DNA of 64,000 nt. Source: Ignavibacteria bacterium (GTDB taxonomy: Bacteria; Bacteroidota; Ignavibacteria; Ignavibacteriales; SURF-24). The stretch covers positions 248,001 through 312,000 of the forward strand of contig JAAXKQ010000001.1 in assembly GCA_025612245.1 (NCBI GenBank), given 5' to 3'. The notes beneath the pieces were generated by a model, which ran no database searches, had not been told where the DNA came from, and saw only the letters and a list, made by a program, of their open reading frames with translations. The position numbers were made by a program, and so were the translations under genes. Shown here in pieces: positions 6,637 to 29,537 of this stretch; position 1 is the first letter of the stretch; the number at the start of each line of letters is the position of its first letter.

Positions 6637-6827
6637 AATATCCTGCTTTTTTCTAACAAAAATAAAAAAGATATGAGGCTTTAACAATACTTCTCATTGC
6701 AGTATTGGAGCAGGAAGTAATAAATTGAGCGTCAAAAGAAGGAATTGCTGTATAAATAGTATAGCTTTCGTTATATTTGGCGCTAAAATTACTGCTTTTT
6801 GACAATTATCGGAATTATTTTAAGAAA
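6637..6827. other. divergent intergenic region nadE / TSUP gene
   Basis: 191 bp between divergently transcribed genes, so both promoters should be here. A small hairpin (7-bp arms 6685-6691 and 6701-6707) lies in the middle. A TAnnTTTG-like element occurs at 6772-6779, resembling the -7 box of Bacteroidota promoters, but no matching -33 box sits at the usual distance. Confidence 0.35.
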
Positions 6828-7583
6828 ATGGATCCAATCTTCATATATCCTGTCTTGTTTCTAGCTGGTATTGTAGCGGGACTAATTGACGCAATTGCCG
6901 GAGGCGGGGGCCTCATTACACTGCCCGTGCTGCTTGGAGTGGGACTGCCGCCTCATATGGCGCTTGGTACGAATAAGTTCCAGGCCTGCTTCGGAAGCTT
7001 TACGACTTCATATTATTACATAAAAAAAGGCGGGGTTTCGCTTAAAAGCACCCTGCCCGGAATATTATTCACCCTGATCGGCTCGGCCATTGGAACCTGG
7101 AGCGTTCAGCAGGTAAACAGTAACGTCCTTAAAGACATAATCCCTTTTCTCATGGCTGCAATCATTATCTATTCTTTTCTGACGCCAAAGCTGGGAGAGG
7201 TGGACAGGCTCCCTCGTATAAAACCTTTTATTTTCTACACTGCTTTCGGCCTGTTACTCGGCTTCTATGACGGCTTTTTTGGACCCGGCGTGGGCTCCTT
7301 CTGGGCAATTTCATTTGTCCTGATGATGGGCTTTAACCTGACCAAGGCAACAGGCTATACTAAGGTAATGAACTTTACGAGCAATATCATTTCATTCGCT
7401 ATTTTTATTGCCGGAGGATTTGTCATGTTTGCCGCAGGACTTGCAATGGCGGCAGGACAGATTTTAGGATCCAAGATCGGGGCGGGACTTGTAATAAAGC
7501 GCGGTACAAAATTCATTCGCCCGATCTTTATTACAATGGTAATCCTTACGACATTAAAGCTACTCTATAGCAGGTATTTCTGA
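6828..7583 (+). CDS. TSUP-family permease (TauE/SafE type)
   Basis: 251 aa integral membrane protein with about eight hydrophobic segments. It has the two TSUP repeats: AIAGGGGLITLP followed by GTNK, then DGFFGPGVGSFW followed by TKATGYTK and a conserved Asn. Family members (YfcA, TauE, SafE) export sulfite, sulfonates or other small organosulfur anions across the inner membrane. The substrate here is not readable from sequence. The ATG at 6828 (MDPIFIYP) was chosen over an upstream TTG because it begins directly before the first membrane helix. Divergent from nadE and alone as a transcription unit. Confidence 0.85.
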   Translation: MDPIFIYPVLFLAGIVAGLIDAIAGGGGLITLPVLLGVGLPPHMALGTNKFQACFGSFTTSYYYIKKGGVSLKSTLPGILFTLIGSAIGTWSVQQVNSNVLKDIIPFLMAAIIIYSFLTPKLGEVDRLPRIKPFIFYTAFGLLLGFYDGFFGPGVGSFWAISFVLMMGFNLTKATGYTKVMNFTSNIISFAIFIAGGFVMFAAGLAMAAGQILGSKIGAGLVIKRGTKFIRPIFITMVILTTLKLLYSRYF

Positions 7584-7648
7584 GCTTTGCTTTAAGAGAG
7601 TTAATTATTATTTTAAGCTGACATATTGTAAAATCATTTGAGGGGCAA

Positions 7649-10615
7649 GTGGTAAAAAAACTGTTAATCCTACTTCCTGTTATTATCACTGTGTTATCAG
7701 GGTGTCTGAAGAAAGAAGCTACGCTTATGGATGAACTTGCAATTCAGGTAAAAGATACCACACGTGCATTTTCGTATACAAACAAAAAATTCGGCCAGTA
7801 TTACGGGGAAACAAACTCATATTTTAAGGACGGCTGGCAGGGCTGGACGTTAAAAGAACAGAGGGTCTTTAACGACTATGCCTTTGAGAAAGACGGTATT
7901 TTGCTCCAGCGAAGTGCTGCTACGGCTACGGTTTATCCGCACGTTCTTAAAAGAGAATATAGTGACGGTACCGCAGAGCGGTTTTTCTTTGCCGACAGCA
8001 TGGATCTGATTATGATTGAATATAACTCCAGGACCTCGGGCGAAATTTCTTTCAGGCTCGACGGGCTCTTAGGCGGTGAGGACTTTTTGCTGGAGAATAA
8101 CGTCATAAAGCACAGCATCAATAGTTTTATTCCAAACGGCTTCATTTATATTACCTCCGACAGAAAAATTAAAGACGTCAAAAGACAAGACGGTGTCTTC
8201 AGGCTAAGGATTCCCGGAGAAAAATCAGCCAAAATATTTATTGCCGTTTCCTCTGCCACTCCTGACTTTAAGTCCATAATGGATAACTCTGAAAGCCTTG
8301 TTGAGAAAAAAGAAAAAAGAATTGAGAAGCTTCTTTCTTCAAGCTACGTGAAGACAAACAACAAAGAATTTGACAAGGCTCTCATGTGGGCCAAGATTTC
8401 TCTCGACGCCCTTATTACAGAACAGGATACAAAAGGGATATTTGCAGGGCTCCCCTGGTTTAACAACTACTGGGGACGCGATACTTTTATCTCGCTTCCG
8501 GGGGCGACTTTTGTAACCGGCAACTTTAAGGACGCAAGAGATATTCTGCTGTCGTTTGCAAAGTACCAGGACAAAAATCCCTCAAGCCCGAATTACGGCA
8601 GAATCCCGAACAGGATCACCCTCAAGGAAACCATATACAACACGGTTGACGGAACTCCGTGGTTCGTAATACAATCTTACAACTACTTCATGAGCTCAAA
8701 TGATATTTCTTTCTTAAAGGAAATCTACCCTTCCGTAAAACTTGCCTTTGAGGCTTCCGTGAAAAACCACGTTGACGATAAGGGCTTCCTTACGCACAAG
8801 GATGCCGAGACGTGGATGGATGCCGTTGGTCCTGAAGGCCCATGGTCGCCAAGGGGAAACCGCGCAGATGACATCCAGGCGCTCTGGTACAAGCAGCTTT
8901 CCTGTACTTCGGAAATGGCTTCGATTATGAAAGACACGGCACTGGAGCAGGCTGCCCTGGCGTTATCTGAAAAACTAAGCCTGAATTTTCGGAAATATTT
9001 TATCAATGAGGAAAAAGGAATCGTCTACGACAGGCTTACACCCGATGGAGCGCCCGACAGCACTATGCGGCCTAACTTGTTTTTTGCTCTAAATGAGCCT
9101 GCATTTTTTCCTGATGCCCTTTCAAGACTGAGGATACTTTCCAGGGCCGTAGGAAGCCTGGTCTATCCTTACGGCGTCCTTTCACTGGCACAGACCGATT
9201 CGAACTTTCATCCCTTCCATCAGTATCCGCCGTATTATGTAAAAGACGCAGCCTATCATAACGGCGTAATGTGGCAGTGGAACGTTGGACCTGTAGTTCA
9301 GACGCTCTGCAGCTTCGGAAAACAGGATATGGCCTGGAGCCTTACAAAAGAACTTACGCACGAGATACTCGAAAGAGGCGCTGTTGGAACGCTTGCCGAG
9401 CTGATGGATGCAATGCCGAGGCAGGGAGAAAAAGACCCGCGCTTAAGCGGAACATTCAGCCAGGCCTGGAGCCTTGCAGAGTATATAAGAAACTTTTACC
9501 AGGATTATCTTGGCGTCAAGCCGGATGCCCCGCACAAGGCTTTGTATCTGCTGCCAACTCTTCCAGGCGGACTTAACCAGGTGGAGTTTGACCAGAAAGT
9601 AGGCGACGACGTACTTAAGATTAAATATGAATTTAATAATGAATACTACAGGGTTTTTCTCGACGCCTCTAAAATAAAGGACAGCCTGGACATCGGGATC
9701 GGTCTTTTTAACCGTGCCGATGCAAATTTCCAGATGAAGACCTCGATAAAAAAGAACGACAAGATGGTTTTTGAAGTCCCCGCAAATTCCAATAACCTCA
9801 AGGATCTCTTAGCCGTAAGAAACGACAAGAGGATAAGAGTATCTTCGCAGATATATAATGAGCCACCTGCAAATGCCGGGCTTTTTAACGGCATCAGGTT
9901 TGCCGTTCCGAGCCTCGATAAAAACCTTAAGGCGCTTAAAGGTCCGGGCTACAGCCTTTTAGGCAACAAAGAGGTTAAGCAGGAGAATGCCTCGGCACGC
10001 GTTATTTTTGACAGGAGATCGGCTGAAAAAGACGAAAAGTATGAATATCCGACTAACCCTAACTTCAGGGAGGGCATACTGGACATAACGAGGTTCATTT
10101 TGCAGGAAGACGATAAAAATTATTATTTCACGCTTAACTTCAGAAACCTGTCAAACCCGGGCTGGCACAATGAATACGGATATCAGCTTACCTTTACAAG
10201 CATCTGCATACAAAATGAAGAAATAAAAGAAAGAAGCCGTAAGGTAAACCTGAACTCCGGATACACGCTGAGTGAGGATAGAGCATTCTCGAGGCAGGTT
10301 AACGTAGGCGGCGGCTTAGAAATTAAGGATGCCATGGGGAAAATTCTTGCTGCCTACCTCCCGCTTCCCGAAGACATAAGAAATCCCTTAGGAAGCGTGC
10401 AGAAGAAAACAATTAGGTTTTCAGTTCCCAAAAGTCTCCTGGGAAAGATTTCACAGTCTTCTAAAATTACGCTTCTTGCGGGCGCGCAGGATGACCATGG
10501 TGGAGCCGGCGTGGGCGAGTTCAGGAATGTTGGACTCAAGGTTTCAGAATGGGAAGGCGGCGGAAAGAAATCCCCTTCTGAAAGTAACGTGTTTGATTAT
10601 CTTCTTGTAAATTAA
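7649..10615 (+). CDS. Secreted lipoprotein, glycogen-debranching-like glucosidase with glucodextranase-type C-terminal domain
   Basis: 988 aa, GTG start behind a GAGGGG site. A lipoprotein signal (VLSGC, Cys19) places it in the envelope. The central (alpha/alpha) barrel, about 230-640, resembles the C-terminal domain of amylo-alpha-1,6-glucosidases: GRDTFISLPG near 275, TWMDA near 388, then the NRADDIQALWY segment. Residues about 800-985 look like the C-terminal binding module of glucodextranase (DITRFI, then a segment rich in aromatic residues). Cytoplasmic debranching enzymes lack a lipobox, so this is probably an exported alpha-glucan or other oligosaccharide hydrolase. Family-level substrate is uncertain (GH15/GH133-like fold). 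The esterase gene follows after 20 bp in the same operon. Confidence 0.75.
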   Translation: MVKKLLILLPVIITVLSGCLKKEATLMDELAIQVKDTTRAFSYTNKKFGQYYGETNSYFKDGWQGWTLKEQRVFNDYAFEKDGILLQRSAATATVYPHVLKREYSDGTAERFFFADSMDLIMIEYNSRTSGEISFRLDGLLGGEDFLLENNVIKHSINSFIPNGFIYITSDRKIKDVKRQDGVFRLRIPGEKSAKIFIAVSSATPDFKSIMDNSESLVEKKEKRIEKLLSSSYVKTNNKEFDKALMWAKISLDALITEQDTKGIFAGLPWFNNYWGRDTFISLPGATFVTGNFKDARDILLSFAKYQDKNPSSPNYGRIPNRITLKETIYNTVDGTPWFVIQSYNYFMSSNDISFLKEIYPSVKLAFEASVKNHVDDKGFLTHKDAETWMDAVGPEGPWSPRGNRADDIQALWYKQLSCTSEMASIMKDTALEQAALALSEKLSLNFRKYFINEEKGIVYDRLTPDGAPDSTMRPNLFFALNEPAFFPDALSRLRILSRAVGSLVYPYGVLSLAQTDSNFHPFHQYPPYYVKDAAYHNGVMWQWNVGPVVQTLCSFGKQDMAWSLTKELTHEILERGAVGTLAELMDAMPRQGEKDPRLSGTFSQAWSLAEYIRNFYQDYLGVKPDAPHKALYLLPTLPGGLNQVEFDQKVGDDVLKIKYEFNNEYYRVFLDASKIKDSLDIGIGLFNRADANFQMKTSIKKNDKMVFEVPANSNNLKDLLAVRNDKRIRVSSQIYNEPPANAGLFNGIRFAVPSLDKNLKALKGPGYSLLGNKEVKQENASARVIFDRRSAEKDEKYEYPTNPNFREGILDITRFILQEDDKNYYFTLNFRNLSNPGWHNEYGYQLTFTSICIQNEEIKERSRKVNLNSGYTLSEDRAFSRQVNVGGGLEIKDAMGKILAAYLPLPEDIRNPLGSVQKKTIRFSVPKSLLGKISQSSKITLLAGAQDDHGGAGVGEFRNVGLKVSEWEGGGKKSPSESNVFDYLLVN

Positions 10616-22548: not shown

Positions 22549-24756
22549 ATGAAAGTAAAATTACTTTCCTTATTATTCTTTTCACTTTTTACCTGCCTTT
22601 ATGCTCAGAATGAATTCTGGCAGAAAGTTTCGCATGTGGATGCAGGAAATTCAGTATCCATGGCCGTTGATTCACTGGGATATGTTTACAACGGGACCAG
22701 CGATGAGGGACTCTTCCAGTCGACTGACCACGGCAAGACCTGGAAAAAGCTGGAAACAGGCTTTTATAAGGCAACCGTCAAAAAAGTCAGGGTTATTCCG
22801 GATGGCAGTATTGCCGTCCTTACTGCAGACTACGGTATTCTCATATCCAAGGATCATGGAAAAACATGGAGGCAGAGAATTGGTTCACTTAATGCACAAG
22901 ACATTCTTACCATGAGCGCCAGTTCCGAATATCTCCTTGCCGGTACGTCAAATGGTCTTTACAAATCATCTGACGGCGGTAACAGTTGGAAAGCTGATAG
23001 TGCTTTCAGCGGAATGAAAGTAGTTGAAATTGAATATTTGAATGGTGTGCTTTTCTGTTTCAGTCGGAAGGATAATTTCGTTTTTGCCACTTCTACAGAT
23101 GGGGGCCACTCATGGGTCGTTTCATCGCTCCGTTATGAGGGGTTCGATTATGTTAATGCCTCATTTGCATATTTACCTTCCGCAGGGAAAGTCTTCTGCG
23201 CCTTAAGTTCTACACTTGATCAGAATAGCTATCGGAGGTGGGTTTATTCCAACGATACGGGGAAAACATGGAGTAATTATAACCCCGGTGGATACGTAAA
23301 CTCATGGATTGCCGACACATCAGGGAATCTGTATGCGGCATGCTTCAAATCCGGAGTAATTAAATCATCCGATATGGGAGTTACATGGCAGAAATCAGGC
23401 AGCGGAATAAGCAACACTTTCATTCAATCAATTGCATTCGATCCGAAGGGAAGGATTTATGCCGGTACAACGGGCAGCGTGATTAGTTCAAATGACAATG
23501 GGAAAAGCTGGGAAAGTTATACGACAGGCTTAAACAATACTGGTATTAGCGAAGTAGCAGTTGATCTAAACGGAAACATTTATGCGTCCTTCTATGATGG
23601 TTTTTATTGGTCAAAAGATAAGGGCGCAAACTGGCAGGCCGTTACAGAAGGGCTTAATATGTTATCACTTTCCAGACTGCGGCAGATTAATAACAATATA
23701 TTTATTTATTCAGAAGAATTTTATGGGATGGATATCTTTATAAATGACTGCCATAGATTCAACCAGGCCCTGAATAAGTGGACAAGTTGCGATTCAAGTA
23801 TTTTTGTATTTATAGATGAATTAGCCAAGGATAATAATGGCGACATTTATTCTTTTTACCAACATTACTCACGTGGTATGTCGAGTTGTATATATAGATC
23901 GACTGATGACGGAAAAACCTGGACTTACCGTGATTTGGACGTTGATAGCAAGTCTTCTTTTACAATTGATGCAAAGGGAACTTTCTTTCTTACAACTTCA
24001 TCTAGCCGTGGTATAATAAAGAGTTACGATAAAGGAATGACCTGGGAATCTACCGGTTACAGCGAAAAATCCGCAAAAAAAATCAGATCCAGCTCAAAGG
24101 GATACCTTTTTTTGCAAACTGATGACAATAGAATGCTTTTATCGAAAGATGGGGGGAGCTCGTGGACAAGCATAATAGATAATTTTCCGAACTCAGGAAT
24201 CGCTGATTTTTATTTGGACAGTAAAGACCGCATATATATCTTAGATAAACTGAGACATCTTTACTACTCTGCTGACAACGGGGGAAAATGGACATCAATA
24301 ACGAATAATCTTCTTGGTCCAGGTATTAAATGCATTGCATTAGGTCCGGACTTGAGCATTTACGCTGTCACACTTTCAGGAGAAATATACAGGACTACTG
24401 AGCTGGGATATTCTGGCGGGTCCACAGATTCGACCGGTACACCTAATATAAATGATCCAAAAGATTCTACAAATGCGTCAATTTCCGCTCCCAAAGACTA
24501 TTCTTTATCCCAGAATTACCCAAACCCGTTTAACCCGAATACGACCATCAGCTATGCAATTCCTCACGCAGGAAATGTAAGCATAAGCCTTTTTGACGCC
24601 CTTGGAAATAAGGTCATGGATCTTGTGAATGAGTACAAGTCTGAGGGCATTTACAAGGTTAACTTTGACGGGAAGAACTTTGCAAGCGGGGTTTACTTCT
24701 ACAGAATACATTCCGGGAACTACATTGAAACTAAAAAGCTGATGCTTATTAAGTAA
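22549..24756 (+). CDS. Secreted Asp-box beta-propeller protein with T9SS sorting domain (copy 1)
   Basis: 735 aa. Signal peptide ending at LYAQ, then twelve Asp-box repeats (S-x-D-x-G-x-x-W, e.g. STDHGKTW, SSDGGNSW, SNDNGKSW) spread over about residues 45-620. This is a BNR/sortilin-like propeller that may be ten-bladed or two linked propellers. The last ~85 residues are a T9SS type A sorting domain beginning at NYPNPFNP and ending in KKLMLIK. The protein should be exported and released or anchored at the surface. No catalytic sialidase Arg triad was recognised, so no enzyme activity is claimed. AGGAG site before the ATG. Paralog of the next gene. Confidence 0.85.
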   Translation: MKVKLLSLLFFSLFTCLYAQNEFWQKVSHVDAGNSVSMAVDSLGYVYNGTSDEGLFQSTDHGKTWKKLETGFYKATVKKVRVIPDGSIAVLTADYGILISKDHGKTWRQRIGSLNAQDILTMSASSEYLLAGTSNGLYKSSDGGNSWKADSAFSGMKVVEIEYLNGVLFCFSRKDNFVFATSTDGGHSWVVSSLRYEGFDYVNASFAYLPSAGKVFCALSSTLDQNSYRRWVYSNDTGKTWSNYNPGGYVNSWIADTSGNLYAACFKSGVIKSSDMGVTWQKSGSGISNTFIQSIAFDPKGRIYAGTTGSVISSNDNGKSWESYTTGLNNTGISEVAVDLNGNIYASFYDGFYWSKDKGANWQAVTEGLNMLSLSRLRQINNNIFIYSEEFYGMDIFINDCHRFNQALNKWTSCDSSIFVFIDELAKDNNGDIYSFYQHYSRGMSSCIYRSTDDGKTWTYRDLDVDSKSSFTIDAKGTFFLTTSSSRGIIKSYDKGMTWESTGYSEKSAKKIRSSSKGYLFLQTDDNRMLLSKDGGSSWTSIIDNFPNSGIADFYLDSKDRIYILDKLRHLYYSADNGGKWTSITNNLLGPGIKCIALGPDLSIYAVTLSGEIYRTTELGYSGGSTDSTGTPNINDPKDSTNASISAPKDYSLSQNYPNPFNPNTTISYAIPHAGNVSISLFDALGNKVMDLVNEYKSEGIYKVNFDGKNFASGVYFYRIHSGNYIETKKLMLIK

Positions 24757-24768
24757 GGCTTTCTGTTA
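24497..24768 (+). repeat. 272-bp direct repeat, copy 1 (T9SS tail)
   Basis: Identical by eye, base for base, to 26907-27178 (offset 2410). It covers the whole sorting domain, the stop codon and 12 bases after it. The genes diverge strongly immediately outside it. Confidence 0.95.
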
Positions 24769-24784
24769 GAAGAGATATTTGAGT

Positions 24785-24820
24785 GTGAAATAGCTGGATA
24801 AATTTATCCGGCTATTTCAC
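24785..24820 (+). terminator. hairpin terminator after copy 1
   Basis: 18-bp near-perfect palindrome (24785-24802 / 24803-24820, one G-U) followed by a short T-rich stretch. Confidence 0.7.
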
Positions 24821-24991
24821 TTTCTGAATTTTTGAATAAAGTTAGTTTTTCCTATCATTTTATAGATACAAAAGTGTTTCTGATACAAATCTCCCAATCC
24901 TCAAAATGACAGGAAATTTCAGCTTTACTTTCTGAATGTAAATTCCTGAGATATTGCGGTAAACCAGTAAAACTGCAAAAGGAGGATTTTC

Positions 24992-27166
24992 ATGAAAATT
25001 AAATTACTCCCCTTCTTAATCCTGATCTTAAGTATGTGTATTTATCCTCAAAATCAATTATGGCATAAGATTTCAACAGTAGACGCCGGGAACTCAGTTT
25101 CAATAGCGGTTGATTCTTTGGGATATATCTATAATGGTACATCCGACAGAGGTTTATTCCAGTCAACTGATAATGGGCTGAGCTGGCAGAAGCTTAACAT
25201 TGGATTTAGTGATATAACAATAAGAAAAGTCAGGGTGACTCAGGATGGAAGCATTATGGCAGTAACAACAAAGTACGGTATTATGATTTCCAGCGATAAC
25301 GGGAGAACCTGGAGCCAGATAAATGGTCAGCTTAGCCCGATAGATATTATAACCATTAGTTCAAGTTCAGACTTTCTTTTGGCTGGCACACCCAATGGGC
25401 TTTTTAAGTCATCTGATGGCGGCAAGAACTGGCTTTCTGACAATGCATTTGCTGGGCTTAAAGTCATTGAGATTGAAAACATAAAAGGGACAATATTCTG
25501 CTACGGTATAGCGGGTATTCAAAAAAAAGCCTTTTTTACTTCTTCAGACGGCGGAAAAACATGGACGGAAATCGATCTTTCACATGAGGGCTTCAGCTAT
25601 CAAACTGCTGCATTTGCTTTTGATAAAGCAACAGGCAGAGTCTTCTGCGCTGCAAGTTTCTCATCATATAACGGGACAGGAAGAGTTACATATTCTTCCA
25701 ATGATAATGGCAGAACCTGGGTTAGCATTGACTCTAAAGGTAAACTGATAAATTCTCTCTTTACAGATTCATCAGGATTGTTATTTGCCGCCTGTTCCCA
25801 TGATGGTATTATTAAGTCAACTGACTGGGGGCTTTCCTGGCAGAATGCAAGTGCCGGAATAAGCAATCCTTATGTGGGATCAATAACATATGACAAAAAA
25901 GGGAATATTTATGCCGGAACTACAAGCGGTGTAATGGTTTCGCAAGACAATGGTTTAAGCTGGAAGGAAGTTTCAAAAGGCCTGAATATTTCTTCTCTAA
26001 ATGGTTTTGTTGCCGATGATAATGGGAATCTATATGCATCTTCGACAGCTAGTATTTACAGGTCAAAGGATGATGGCTTAAACTGGGCTCCTGTTATGAA
26101 CGGAATTGAGCCCGGGAACCTTTCAATGTTAAGAGAAGTTAACAATAACATTTTCATAAGTCATACGACGTACTTAACAACAAGCAGCTTTACGAGTGGT
26201 CAGAAATTTTATCCGGACTTAAATTCATGGGGGAAAAGCAATAATGTTGTTGATCAAACAGGAGTTGATCCTAGAGGCAGGATTTATTCTTTATATACTT
26301 ACTTTGACGGCATATTTGCAACTAATTATCTATATGTTTCATCAAATGGCGGGGATATCTGGTCTCCCCTACTTTCGACCGATAAAGGCGGCTGGAATCC
26401 GCCTTTCGCAGTAGATCCATACAAAGGAATAATTTATCTTAGATCAGCGGGAAATCTCTGCAAGAGTTCTGATTATGGGAAAACATGGAGCAATACAAAT
26501 TATGCCGGAGGTAATTGCATTAAATTGAAGTCCAATACAAAAGGTCATCTTTTTGCCATGCCTGATTCATTCAACATTTTTCGGTCTGAAGATGAGGGAA
26601 ATACATGGAAAGACATACGCAATAACATTACCCTAACCGCTGGCATCTCTGAAATTTATTTTGATAATAATAACAGAGTGTTCCTTCTTACTGGGAACGG
26701 GAGGGTAATCTATTCAAAGAACAGCGGCGATTCTTGGATTGAAATTACAAATAATCTCTTGGATCAGGGAGGAATTTTTGCTATTGCTTTCAGCCCATAT
26801 TCCGTCGTCTATGCTGCTTCAATCTCTGGAGAAATCTATAGAACAACGGAAGAAGCGCTGAAGGAGTTTGTTTCAGTAGAAGAACCTAAGATTGATATAC
26901 CAGAAAACTATTCTTTATCCCAGAATTACCCAAACCCGTTTAACCCGAATACGACCATCAGCTATGCAATTCCTCACGCAGGAAATGTAAGCATAAGCCT
27001 TTTTGACGCCCTTGGAAATAAGGTCATGGATCTTGTGAATGAGTACAAGTCTGAGGGCATTTACAAGGTTAACTTTGACGGGAAGAACTTTGCAAGCGGG
27101 GTTTACTTCTACAGAATACATTCCGGGAACTACATTGAAACTAAAAAGCTGATGCTTATTAAGTAA
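24992..27166 (+). CDS. Secreted Asp-box beta-propeller protein with T9SS sorting domain (copy 2)
   Basis: 724 aa, about half identical over the propeller to the preceding gene and identical over the sorting tail. Signal peptide ending at IYPQ, then twelve Asp-box-like repeats (STDNGLSW, SSDGGKTW, SNDNGRTW, SSDYGKTW), some degenerate (SSNGGDIW, SKNSGDSW), and the T9SS type A domain from NYPNPFNP to KLMLIK. It has an AAGGAGG site. It is preceded by its own 235-bp spacer and hairpin, so probably has its own promoter. The role is unknown; surface binding or adhesion is possible. Confidence 0.85.
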   Translation: MKIKLLPFLILILSMCIYPQNQLWHKISTVDAGNSVSIAVDSLGYIYNGTSDRGLFQSTDNGLSWQKLNIGFSDITIRKVRVTQDGSIMAVTTKYGIMISSDNGRTWSQINGQLSPIDIITISSSSDFLLAGTPNGLFKSSDGGKNWLSDNAFAGLKVIEIENIKGTIFCYGIAGIQKKAFFTSSDGGKTWTEIDLSHEGFSYQTAAFAFDKATGRVFCAASFSSYNGTGRVTYSSNDNGRTWVSIDSKGKLINSLFTDSSGLLFAACSHDGIIKSTDWGLSWQNASAGISNPYVGSITYDKKGNIYAGTTSGVMVSQDNGLSWKEVSKGLNISSLNGFVADDNGNLYASSTASIYRSKDDGLNWAPVMNGIEPGNLSMLREVNNNIFISHTTYLTTSSFTSGQKFYPDLNSWGKSNNVVDQTGVDPRGRIYSLYTYFDGIFATNYLYVSSNGGDIWSPLLSTDKGGWNPPFAVDPYKGIIYLRSAGNLCKSSDYGKTWSNTNYAGGNCIKLKSNTKGHLFAMPDSFNIFRSEDEGNTWKDIRNNITLTAGISEIYFDNNNRVFLLTGNGRVIYSKNSGDSWIEITNNLLDQGGIFAIAFSPYSVVYAASISGEIYRTTEEALKEFVSVEEPKIDIPENYSLSQNYPNPFNPNTTISYAIPHAGNVSISLFDALGNKVMDLVNEYKSEGIYKVNFDGKNFASGVYFYRIHSGNYIETKKLMLIK

Positions 27167-27178
27167 GGCTTTCTGTTA
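26907..27178 (+). repeat. 272-bp direct repeat, copy 2 (T9SS tail)
   Basis: Second copy of 24497-24768. The two direct repeats bracket the second gene, so recombination between them would delete it exactly and leave one intact gene. Confidence 0.95.
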
Positions 27179-27195
27179 AAACGAGATGTATAACT

Positions 27196-27231
27196 TAATG
27201 AAAAGCCGGCTAAAATCCCGGCTTTTCATTA
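27196..27231. terminator. bidirectional terminator
   Basis: 14-bp perfect stem (27196-27209 / 27218-27231, 8-base loop) between the convergent Asp-box gene and the cytosine deaminase gene. Confidence 0.8.
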
Positions 27232-27991: not shown

Positions 27992-28286
27992 ATTTCCTCC
28001 TTTGGGGTTTGAAAATCGTACCCCGGATTTATTTTTACAGAAATTTTCACATTTACCGGACGACAAAGACTAAATTCCCAAGATCAGTTTAATTAGAATA
28101 TGCATTAAATAATTAAAATTCAATCATTTTCTTTCATTTTTGGTCATTAAAGAGGATTTCTCTGGCCAATTTGATACATTCAGCCACTTTTATAAAAATG
28201 CCTGCCTGGAAAGGGTTAAAAAGGACAAAAAATCTTTTGGTACGGAATTAGTGTATTAATAAGAAATTAGACCCGAGGTTTTGGAA
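27992..28286. other. divergent AT-rich intergenic region
   Basis: 295 bp, no coding sequence seen. It should contain the promoters of the small hypothetical gene (-) and the first tandem paralog (+), including the TGGTACG element at 28238. Confidence 0.4.
28238..28252 (+). promoter_or_regulatory. possible sigma-54-like element upstream of tandem paralog 1
   Basis: TGGTACG at 28238-28244. GG (28239-28240) is followed after 10 bases by GT where sigma-54 promoters have GC. The -24 box fits with one mismatch, the -12 box poorly. About 35-50 bases before the ATG. Confidence 0.3.
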
Positions 28287-28991
28287 ATGAACAAATTAAC
28301 ACTTGATACGTTTTTATATGTCACCGATTTTGAACTGAGCTCGTACAAAATTCTGAACAGTTTAAAGAACTACAACAAAGAATTCAATCATAACAGGTTA
28401 TATCCCGGCCTTTCAGAACTGATTGAGCTGAATCTTCAGCTCAAAGAAATAGATGAAAACAACCTGAATGACGTATTTATTGAGAACCTTTCCAGCAGAA
28501 AGTCCAAAGATGACCGCCTGATGGTGGAAACCATTGAGGTTACGGATGACTATATTCAGCAGGTTGTAGATCTAATTGAATGGGCAAAACCTCTGGTCAA
28601 AGACACCATCGATGAAGGCAAAATTCTGTACGAATTCGTCAAAAAGAACATTTATATAGAAGAAATAGGCATCGCAGATGCAAGCCGTGAGGAAGGCTAC
28701 GTCCTTATCCCCGATAACAGGCAGGCCATGATACAGGTACTTCGCTACGAAATTTCCATGACTTCCAGCGGCAAGAAGTCGCAGAGAAAATTAAACACCC
28801 GTGTCATTCAGTCCGTCGACAAGGTTTATGTCAACCAGGCCCCAAATGAAGTGATAATGGATCTCTTTGAACAGTTTGCAGACATGCCAAGCTCTTCGAC
28901 CTTCATCTGCACGACGGATCTGGACTTCCCTTTTAGTGAAACTATTCTTCCTGTTGTAAAAAGGAAACTCATGTCGCGCATGGCAGCCTGA
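28287..28991 (+). CDS. unknown protein, tandem paralog 1
   Basis: 234 aa, soluble, acidic and mainly helical, with no signal peptide or membrane segment. No family recognised. The first ~125 residues are clearly homologous to the next gene: both open with KLTLDTFLYV or YLTLDTFLYV then DFEL, and share Y-K-x-L, Y-N-x-E-F, P-x-LSEL and D-T-I-D-E-G motifs. The C-terminal ~110 residues, absent from the paralog, contain VLRYEISM and a TTDLDFPF segment. Start at the ATG at 28287 (a TTG lies two codons upstream) with a GAGG site. Possible regulation from the element at 28238. The function is unknown. Confidence 0.75.
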   Translation: MNKLTLDTFLYVTDFELSSYKILNSLKNYNKEFNHNRLYPGLSELIELNLQLKEIDENNLNDVFIENLSSRKSKDDRLMVETIEVTDDYIQQVVDLIEWAKPLVKDTIDEGKILYEFVKKNIYIEEIGIADASREEGYVLIPDNRQAMIQVLRYEISMTSSGKKSQRKLNTRVIQSVDKVYVNQAPNEVIMDLFEQFADMPSSSTFICTTDLDFPFSETILPVVKRKLMSRMAA

Positions 28992-29138: not shown

Positions 29139-29537
29139 ATGAAAAAGATGGCATACTTAACTTTAGACACGTTTTTATATGTAAATGATTTTGAATTAGG
29201 CCAGTACAAAGTACTAGGCGCATTGAAAAAATACAACGACGAGTTCCGGAATAAAAGCACACACCCGTATTTGTCTGAATTAACTTCTCTGGTCAATACG
29301 TTGATCAGGGTTGAGAAGAAAAGAAGCAAAATTATAGATCTCTTCCCAATTCCAGTCGAGAAAGTAGACGCCGAGAAAAAGCAGCTCGTTTTTGAAAATT
29401 TCGTCCTTTACAACGAAGATATCGAAAGAATATTCGACCTGATAAAATGGGCAATTCCAATGATACACGACACAATTGACGAAGGCTTGTGCGTAAGCAA
29501 GTCCTTTACAAAAGAGCGCTCGGACGTGCTCGTTTAA
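29139..29537 (+). CDS. unknown protein, tandem paralog 2 (short form)
   Basis: 132 aa (ATG at 29139; a second ATG at 29148 is possible, and a GGG stretch precedes the first). Homologous to the first ~125 residues of the previous gene, ending just after the shared D-T-I-D-E-G motif with a short unrelated tail. The C-terminal half of paralog 1 is missing and no remnant of it is visible downstream, so this looks like a natural short form rather than a frameshift. Cytoplasmic and helical. No recognised family. Followed by its own terminator. Confidence 0.7.
   Translation: MKKMAYLTLDTFLYVNDFELGQYKVLGALKKYNDEFRNKSTHPYLSELTSLVNTLIRVEKKRSKIIDLFPIPVEKVDAEKKQLVFENFVLYNEDIERIFDLIKWAIPMIHDTIDEGLCVSKSFTKERSDVLV

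Follow-up and report, generated by a model that had tools for sequence, protein, structure and literature searches.

Neighbouring T9SS cargo genes of an Ignavibacteria bacterium share homogenised 3' sorting tails, very probably through repeated gene conversion

Neighbouring same-strand genes that encode T9SS cargo very probably undergo repeated gene conversion of their 3' ends, with the sorting tail evolving in concert. The pair described here lies in a 64,000-nucleotide stretch of the genome, which as a whole is called the window.

Two diverged tandem genes with an identical 3' end

Gene A (22549..24756, + strand) encodes a 735-aa protein with an Asp-box (sortilin/BNR) beta-propeller (PF15902) and, at residues 657-732, a C-terminal T9SS type A sorting domain (TIGR04183, PF18962). 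Gene B (24992..27166, + strand), a 724-aa paralog with the same architecture, follows after 235 bp. In profile searches, the two proteins score 46.2 and 46.3 bits against TIGR04183 (cut-off 23) and their C-termini 40.3 and 40.1 against PF18962 (cut-off 27). The genome also encodes SprA (TIGR04189, 815.9 bits, cut-off 200), the sole T9SS component that was looked for. Both proteins are predicted to be secreted T9SS cargo.

The preliminary description of this DNA had put the two propellers at about half identity. The body proteins are indeed 45% identical (280/629 aligned residues), DNA identity outside the tract is about 48-68% per 120-column aligned block, and the synonymous sites of the bodies are saturated (pS 0.757). 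The two genes are tandem paralogs of old origin.

The two genes end in 272 bp that match exactly at an offset of 2410, as had been reported. Copy 1 of this homogenised tract (24497..24768, + strand) runs from the sorting domain through the stop codon into 12 bases of 3' flank, and copy 2 (26907..27178, + strand) does not differ from it at any base. The tract begins one base into the codon preceding YSLSQNYPNPFNP and ends 12 bases beyond the stop, which in gene A is the TAA at 24754-24756. Past this point the 3' flanks of A and B are unlike each other, and each carries its own terminator-like inverted repeat, read by eye, outside the tract (24785..24820 for gene A, differing from that of gene B at 27198..27229; both + strand). 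Inspection of the tract edges by eye revealed no terminal repeats or mobility genes.

Where A and B have the same residue in their bodies, they use the same codon in only 42% of cases. In the tail, the same codon is used at 83/83 residues, and none of the 52 synonymous sites differs. The probability of such agreement is about 9e-32 at the body rate; codon usage alone gives about 1e-37. This is the one segment in which the synonymous sites and the non-coding flank are homogenised, a pattern by which concerted evolution is recognised.

Near-identical tails in the genome are all same-strand neighbours

A tail-protein search of the 4.84-Mb genome returned 128 places. The all-against-all DNA comparison covered 121 of the 128 tails, and an amidase-like pair on C18 was handled apart, its identical tails having merged. 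Only three tail pairs exceed 80% DNA identity (128 tails, 8128 pairs). All three consist of same-strand neighbours at distances of 2.4-3.6 kb, a class in which just 26 of the 8128 pairs fall when the limit is set at 6 kb. Besides A/B (tail DNA 100%), they are the C18 amidase-like pair, with tails at 100% (an exact match of 334 bp that takes in the terminator) and bodies at 71%, and a pair on C22, with tails at 95% (159 bp exact) and bodies at 66% (protein 45%). The remaining tails differ at no fewer than 20% of bases, mostly about 30-40%, and the longest exact run among non-neighbour tails is 28 bp, within the QNYPNPFNP motif. A DNA alignment of the genome's tails had been proposed together with the question of whether other cargo carries the A/B block; no other of the ~128 tails carries it, and homogenisation is confined to same-strand neighbours. 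The tail is therefore not a genome-wide mobile cassette.

One further tandem pair in this genome (L156, G000:C3:5200-10800) is 95% identical over 76 bp of last codons, 3' untranslated sequence and terminator, with tails at 68%. Homogenisation there seems to have been limited to the terminator.

The C22 pair gives an indication of direction, and it is the only pair for which the direction of transfer could be inferred. In a tree of 33 bodies, the body of gene g2 groups with C44 of the same genome (SH-aLRT 100), and C44 and its nearest relatives have a different C-terminus, of the VFPNPYYG type. The body of g1 groups with G001_C2, whose tail is of the g1 kind. Four changes of C-terminus type are required on this tree. 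Since the g2 body falls within a set of relatives that end in another C-terminus while its tail is that of its neighbour, the C-terminus of g2 was most likely replaced by the tail of g1.

Bodies and tails of the amidase-like genes have different histories

The congener G001 carries orthologs of both C18 amidase-like genes in a conserved arrangement, so the sister-genome comparison that had been suggested for the tails could be run on this pair; the body/tail tree test rests on it, A and B having no orthologs in the relatives searched. The amidase-like bodies are closest to their orthologs (0.68 and 0.74, versus 0.63-0.64 for the paralogs within each genome). In the tails the order is reversed: within-genome paralogs are closest, at 0.993 in this genome and 0.924 in the sister, versus 0.75 between genomes.

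The trees are in conflict accordingly. The body tree is ((own_up,sis_up),(own_dn,sis_dn)) with support 100/100, and the paralog grouping is rejected (AU p=1.6e-11). The tail tree is ((own_up,own_dn),(sis_up,sis_dn)), likewise with support 100/100, and here the ortholog grouping is rejected (AU p=9.7e-62). The terminator hairpins match within each genome, as the tails do. The 3' end of this pair has evolved in concert in both lineages since their split.

Apart from the shared 334 bp, the C18 genes have an internal tract of 97% identity (L132, G000:C18). It lies about 470-580 bases before each stop, and a diverged linker separates it from the tail tract.

Homogenised tails in other genomes

The survey drew on 80 tail-bearing GTDB contigs and 20 additional stretches. 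Tail DNA identity reaches at least 85% in 8/59 same-strand homologous pairs, those of the present genome included, and in 2/90 pairs with unrelated bodies. The same pattern of tail homogenisation is found in several other genomes (L296, L309, L308, L207 and L187). The strongest case with unrelated bodies comes from Stygiobacter (L187, MHAZ01000017.1), in which two adjacent genes at 6743-8858 and 8872-10294 have unrelated bodies and tails that are 96% identical. Their common tail includes an insertion, GTAAAGACGCCATATATGGCGTCTCTAC, which resembles a short palindromic repeat inside coding sequence.

The identity of the 3' end exceeds that of the body by at least 0.15 in 11/59 tailed tandem pairs, versus 2/38 tandem pairs that lack the type A tail (Fisher p 0.07). 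Both control matches, L188 and L203, were judged to be artefacts of alignments that were short and end-free or had failed; with the two set aside on inspection, the untailed count becomes 0/36. A tail identity of 1.00 at L141 was judged an artefact of the same kind, a 79-bp run at L307 is an overlap of neighbouring reading frames, and a seeming 397-bp match between two tails of the genome traced back to a single gene entered twice.

About 80% of tandem homologous pairs have no strong tail excess. In two tandem arrays that lack a type A tail, L305 (G026) and L313 (G030), whose C-termini are of the FPNP or YPNP type, the 3' ends lie 0.11-0.12 above the bodies. Part of the 3' bias may thus not be special to the type A domain. 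Because of this modest excess, and because pairs in one array are non-independent, special behaviour of the type A domain is likely but not proven.

Alternative explanations

The shared tail could also stem from a recent duplication of the whole gene, after which one body was replaced by a diverged allele or homolog from outside and the common tail served as the anchor of the exchange. A conserved tail could anchor recombination in this way, surface-protein genes of P. gingivalis are described as exchanging segments between alleles (PMC5266723), and the absence of A and B from the congener, whose flanking genes lie side by side, would suit such a history. Body replacement is nonetheless unlikely: both amidase-like bodies have orthologs at the same location in the sister species, which shows that there the tails were replaced and not the bodies. 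The cassette model, in which the tail moves as DNA and which the preliminary description had offered beside gene conversion, has to be divided. Between neighbours such movement seems to occur, as in the C-terminus of C22 g2 and on the unrelated adjacent bodies of Stygiobacter L187. These two cases also speak for a mobile cassette that spreads genome-wide among cargo genes, but the comparison of the genome's tails yields no dispersed copies, all strong cases that were found are neighbours, and the tract edges bear no sign of mobility by eye. A genome-wide process of this kind is largely refuted, and we consider it very unlikely as the source of the A/B match.

An assembly artefact, in which a single consensus was used for two similar tails, might be suspected in a draft of 44 contigs, the more so as 272 bp can exceed short-read k-mers. 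The tract, however, sits within a contig of 461,695 bp and has unique flanks, and collapse itself presupposes almost identical tails. Neither the imperfect tracts (95%, 93% and 92%) nor those that paralogs of one species share with each other but not with the other species can be products of collapse; the sister amidase-like tails, at 92%, exclude it for that pair. For A/B, where the merging of two almost identical tails retains a small probability, we regard an artefact as highly improbable, even more so than a genome-wide cassette. The smallest probability, close to nil, goes to purifying selection that acts only on protein, RNA or codons. The sorting domain is conserved across cargo, with 19 invariant columns in 14 tails, yet the all-tail comparison refutes selection as the sole cause: the other tails have diverged under the same domain, whereas A and B agree at every codon and their identity continues past the stop. 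The earlier argument that selection on protein is insufficient thus holds, and gene conversion, which had been named as the simplest explanation, is supported by both the neighbour-only homogenisation and the conflict between body and tail trees.

A possible mechanism

Under repeated gene conversion, homologous recombination would take place between the neighbouring 3' ends of A and B, and the tail DNA of one gene, with a few post-stop bases, would recently have overwritten that of the other in a non-reciprocal manner. The A/B bodies would by now be too diverged to recombine, and the conversion tract would be bounded upstream by these bodies and downstream by the unlike flanks. Function would keep the tail similar, its identity would stay above what recombination needs, and it would be homogenised repeatedly. 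We infer that tail constraint maintains homogenisation, since a functionally constrained tail is always similar enough for conversion. The exchange is most likely a RecA-type DNA conversion. Conversion of 3' ends by a reverse transcriptase was considered because some tracts run to the terminator; there is no RVT_1 match in this genome (G000, 97% complete).

Relation to known systems

In methanogens, one domain of the same-operon paralogs mtrA-1 and mtrA-2 has remained homogenised over a very long period (PMC4632066). The likeness lies in neighbouring paralogs with one shared domain under long-lasting conversion and a differing remainder; there, however, one domain of one pair is concerned, whereas here it is a secretion signal at the C-terminus, and several unrelated cargo families of the genome and the order are affected. 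In Salmonella tufA/tufB, conversion has no fixed starting point and extends within the limits of the gene (PMC5485169). Transfer between bacterial paralogs is common to both systems and is non-reciprocal in Salmonella (PMC5485169), but the tuf genes are nearly identical, and in the present pairs only the 3' end seems still convertible. The P. gingivalis genes rgpA, kgp and hagA undergo domain rearrangement and allelic exchange (PMC5266723); these affect adhesin domains, with exchange between strains, as opposed to a sorting domain exchanged by neighbours on one chromosome.

Gene conversion is a known process, and its repeated restriction to the sorting tails of T9SS cargo appears to be a new setting: a search of the open-access literature, with most subscription journals outside its scope, returned no report that connects T9SS with gene conversion or concerted evolution. 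Possibly, and we offer this tentatively, the T9SS tail of Ignavibacteriales is a recombination module that neighbours swap as DNA, even between unrelated bodies, with the gain of a sorting signal in one step.

T9SS cargo proteins form large families, and their C-terminal domains can serve for grouping and tracing proteins. Should neighbours homogenise or swap their tails, any tree or classification based on those tails will mislead, and whole-gene trees will mix two histories. Tail exchange would also be a simple route by which a body acquires a surface or secretion signal.

The locus in relatives and other repeats

No A/B orthologs were found in the 20 relatives searched, in which the best matches have 25-40% identity over parts of the proteins. 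In the congener, the flanking GH31 and TadA-like genes are direct neighbours separated by about 50 bp, and both A and B are missing; the locus thus differs between close species. In principle, the direct repeats would permit a deletion of B, as had been proposed; the congener lacks both genes and not B alone.

An inverted match of 96% at about 19.0-19.3 kb covers tRNA genes. Downstream of gene B, the window contains a further tandem duplicate pair at 28281-28991 and 29139-29537, of which the second copy is shorter (132 versus 236 aa) and may be broken.
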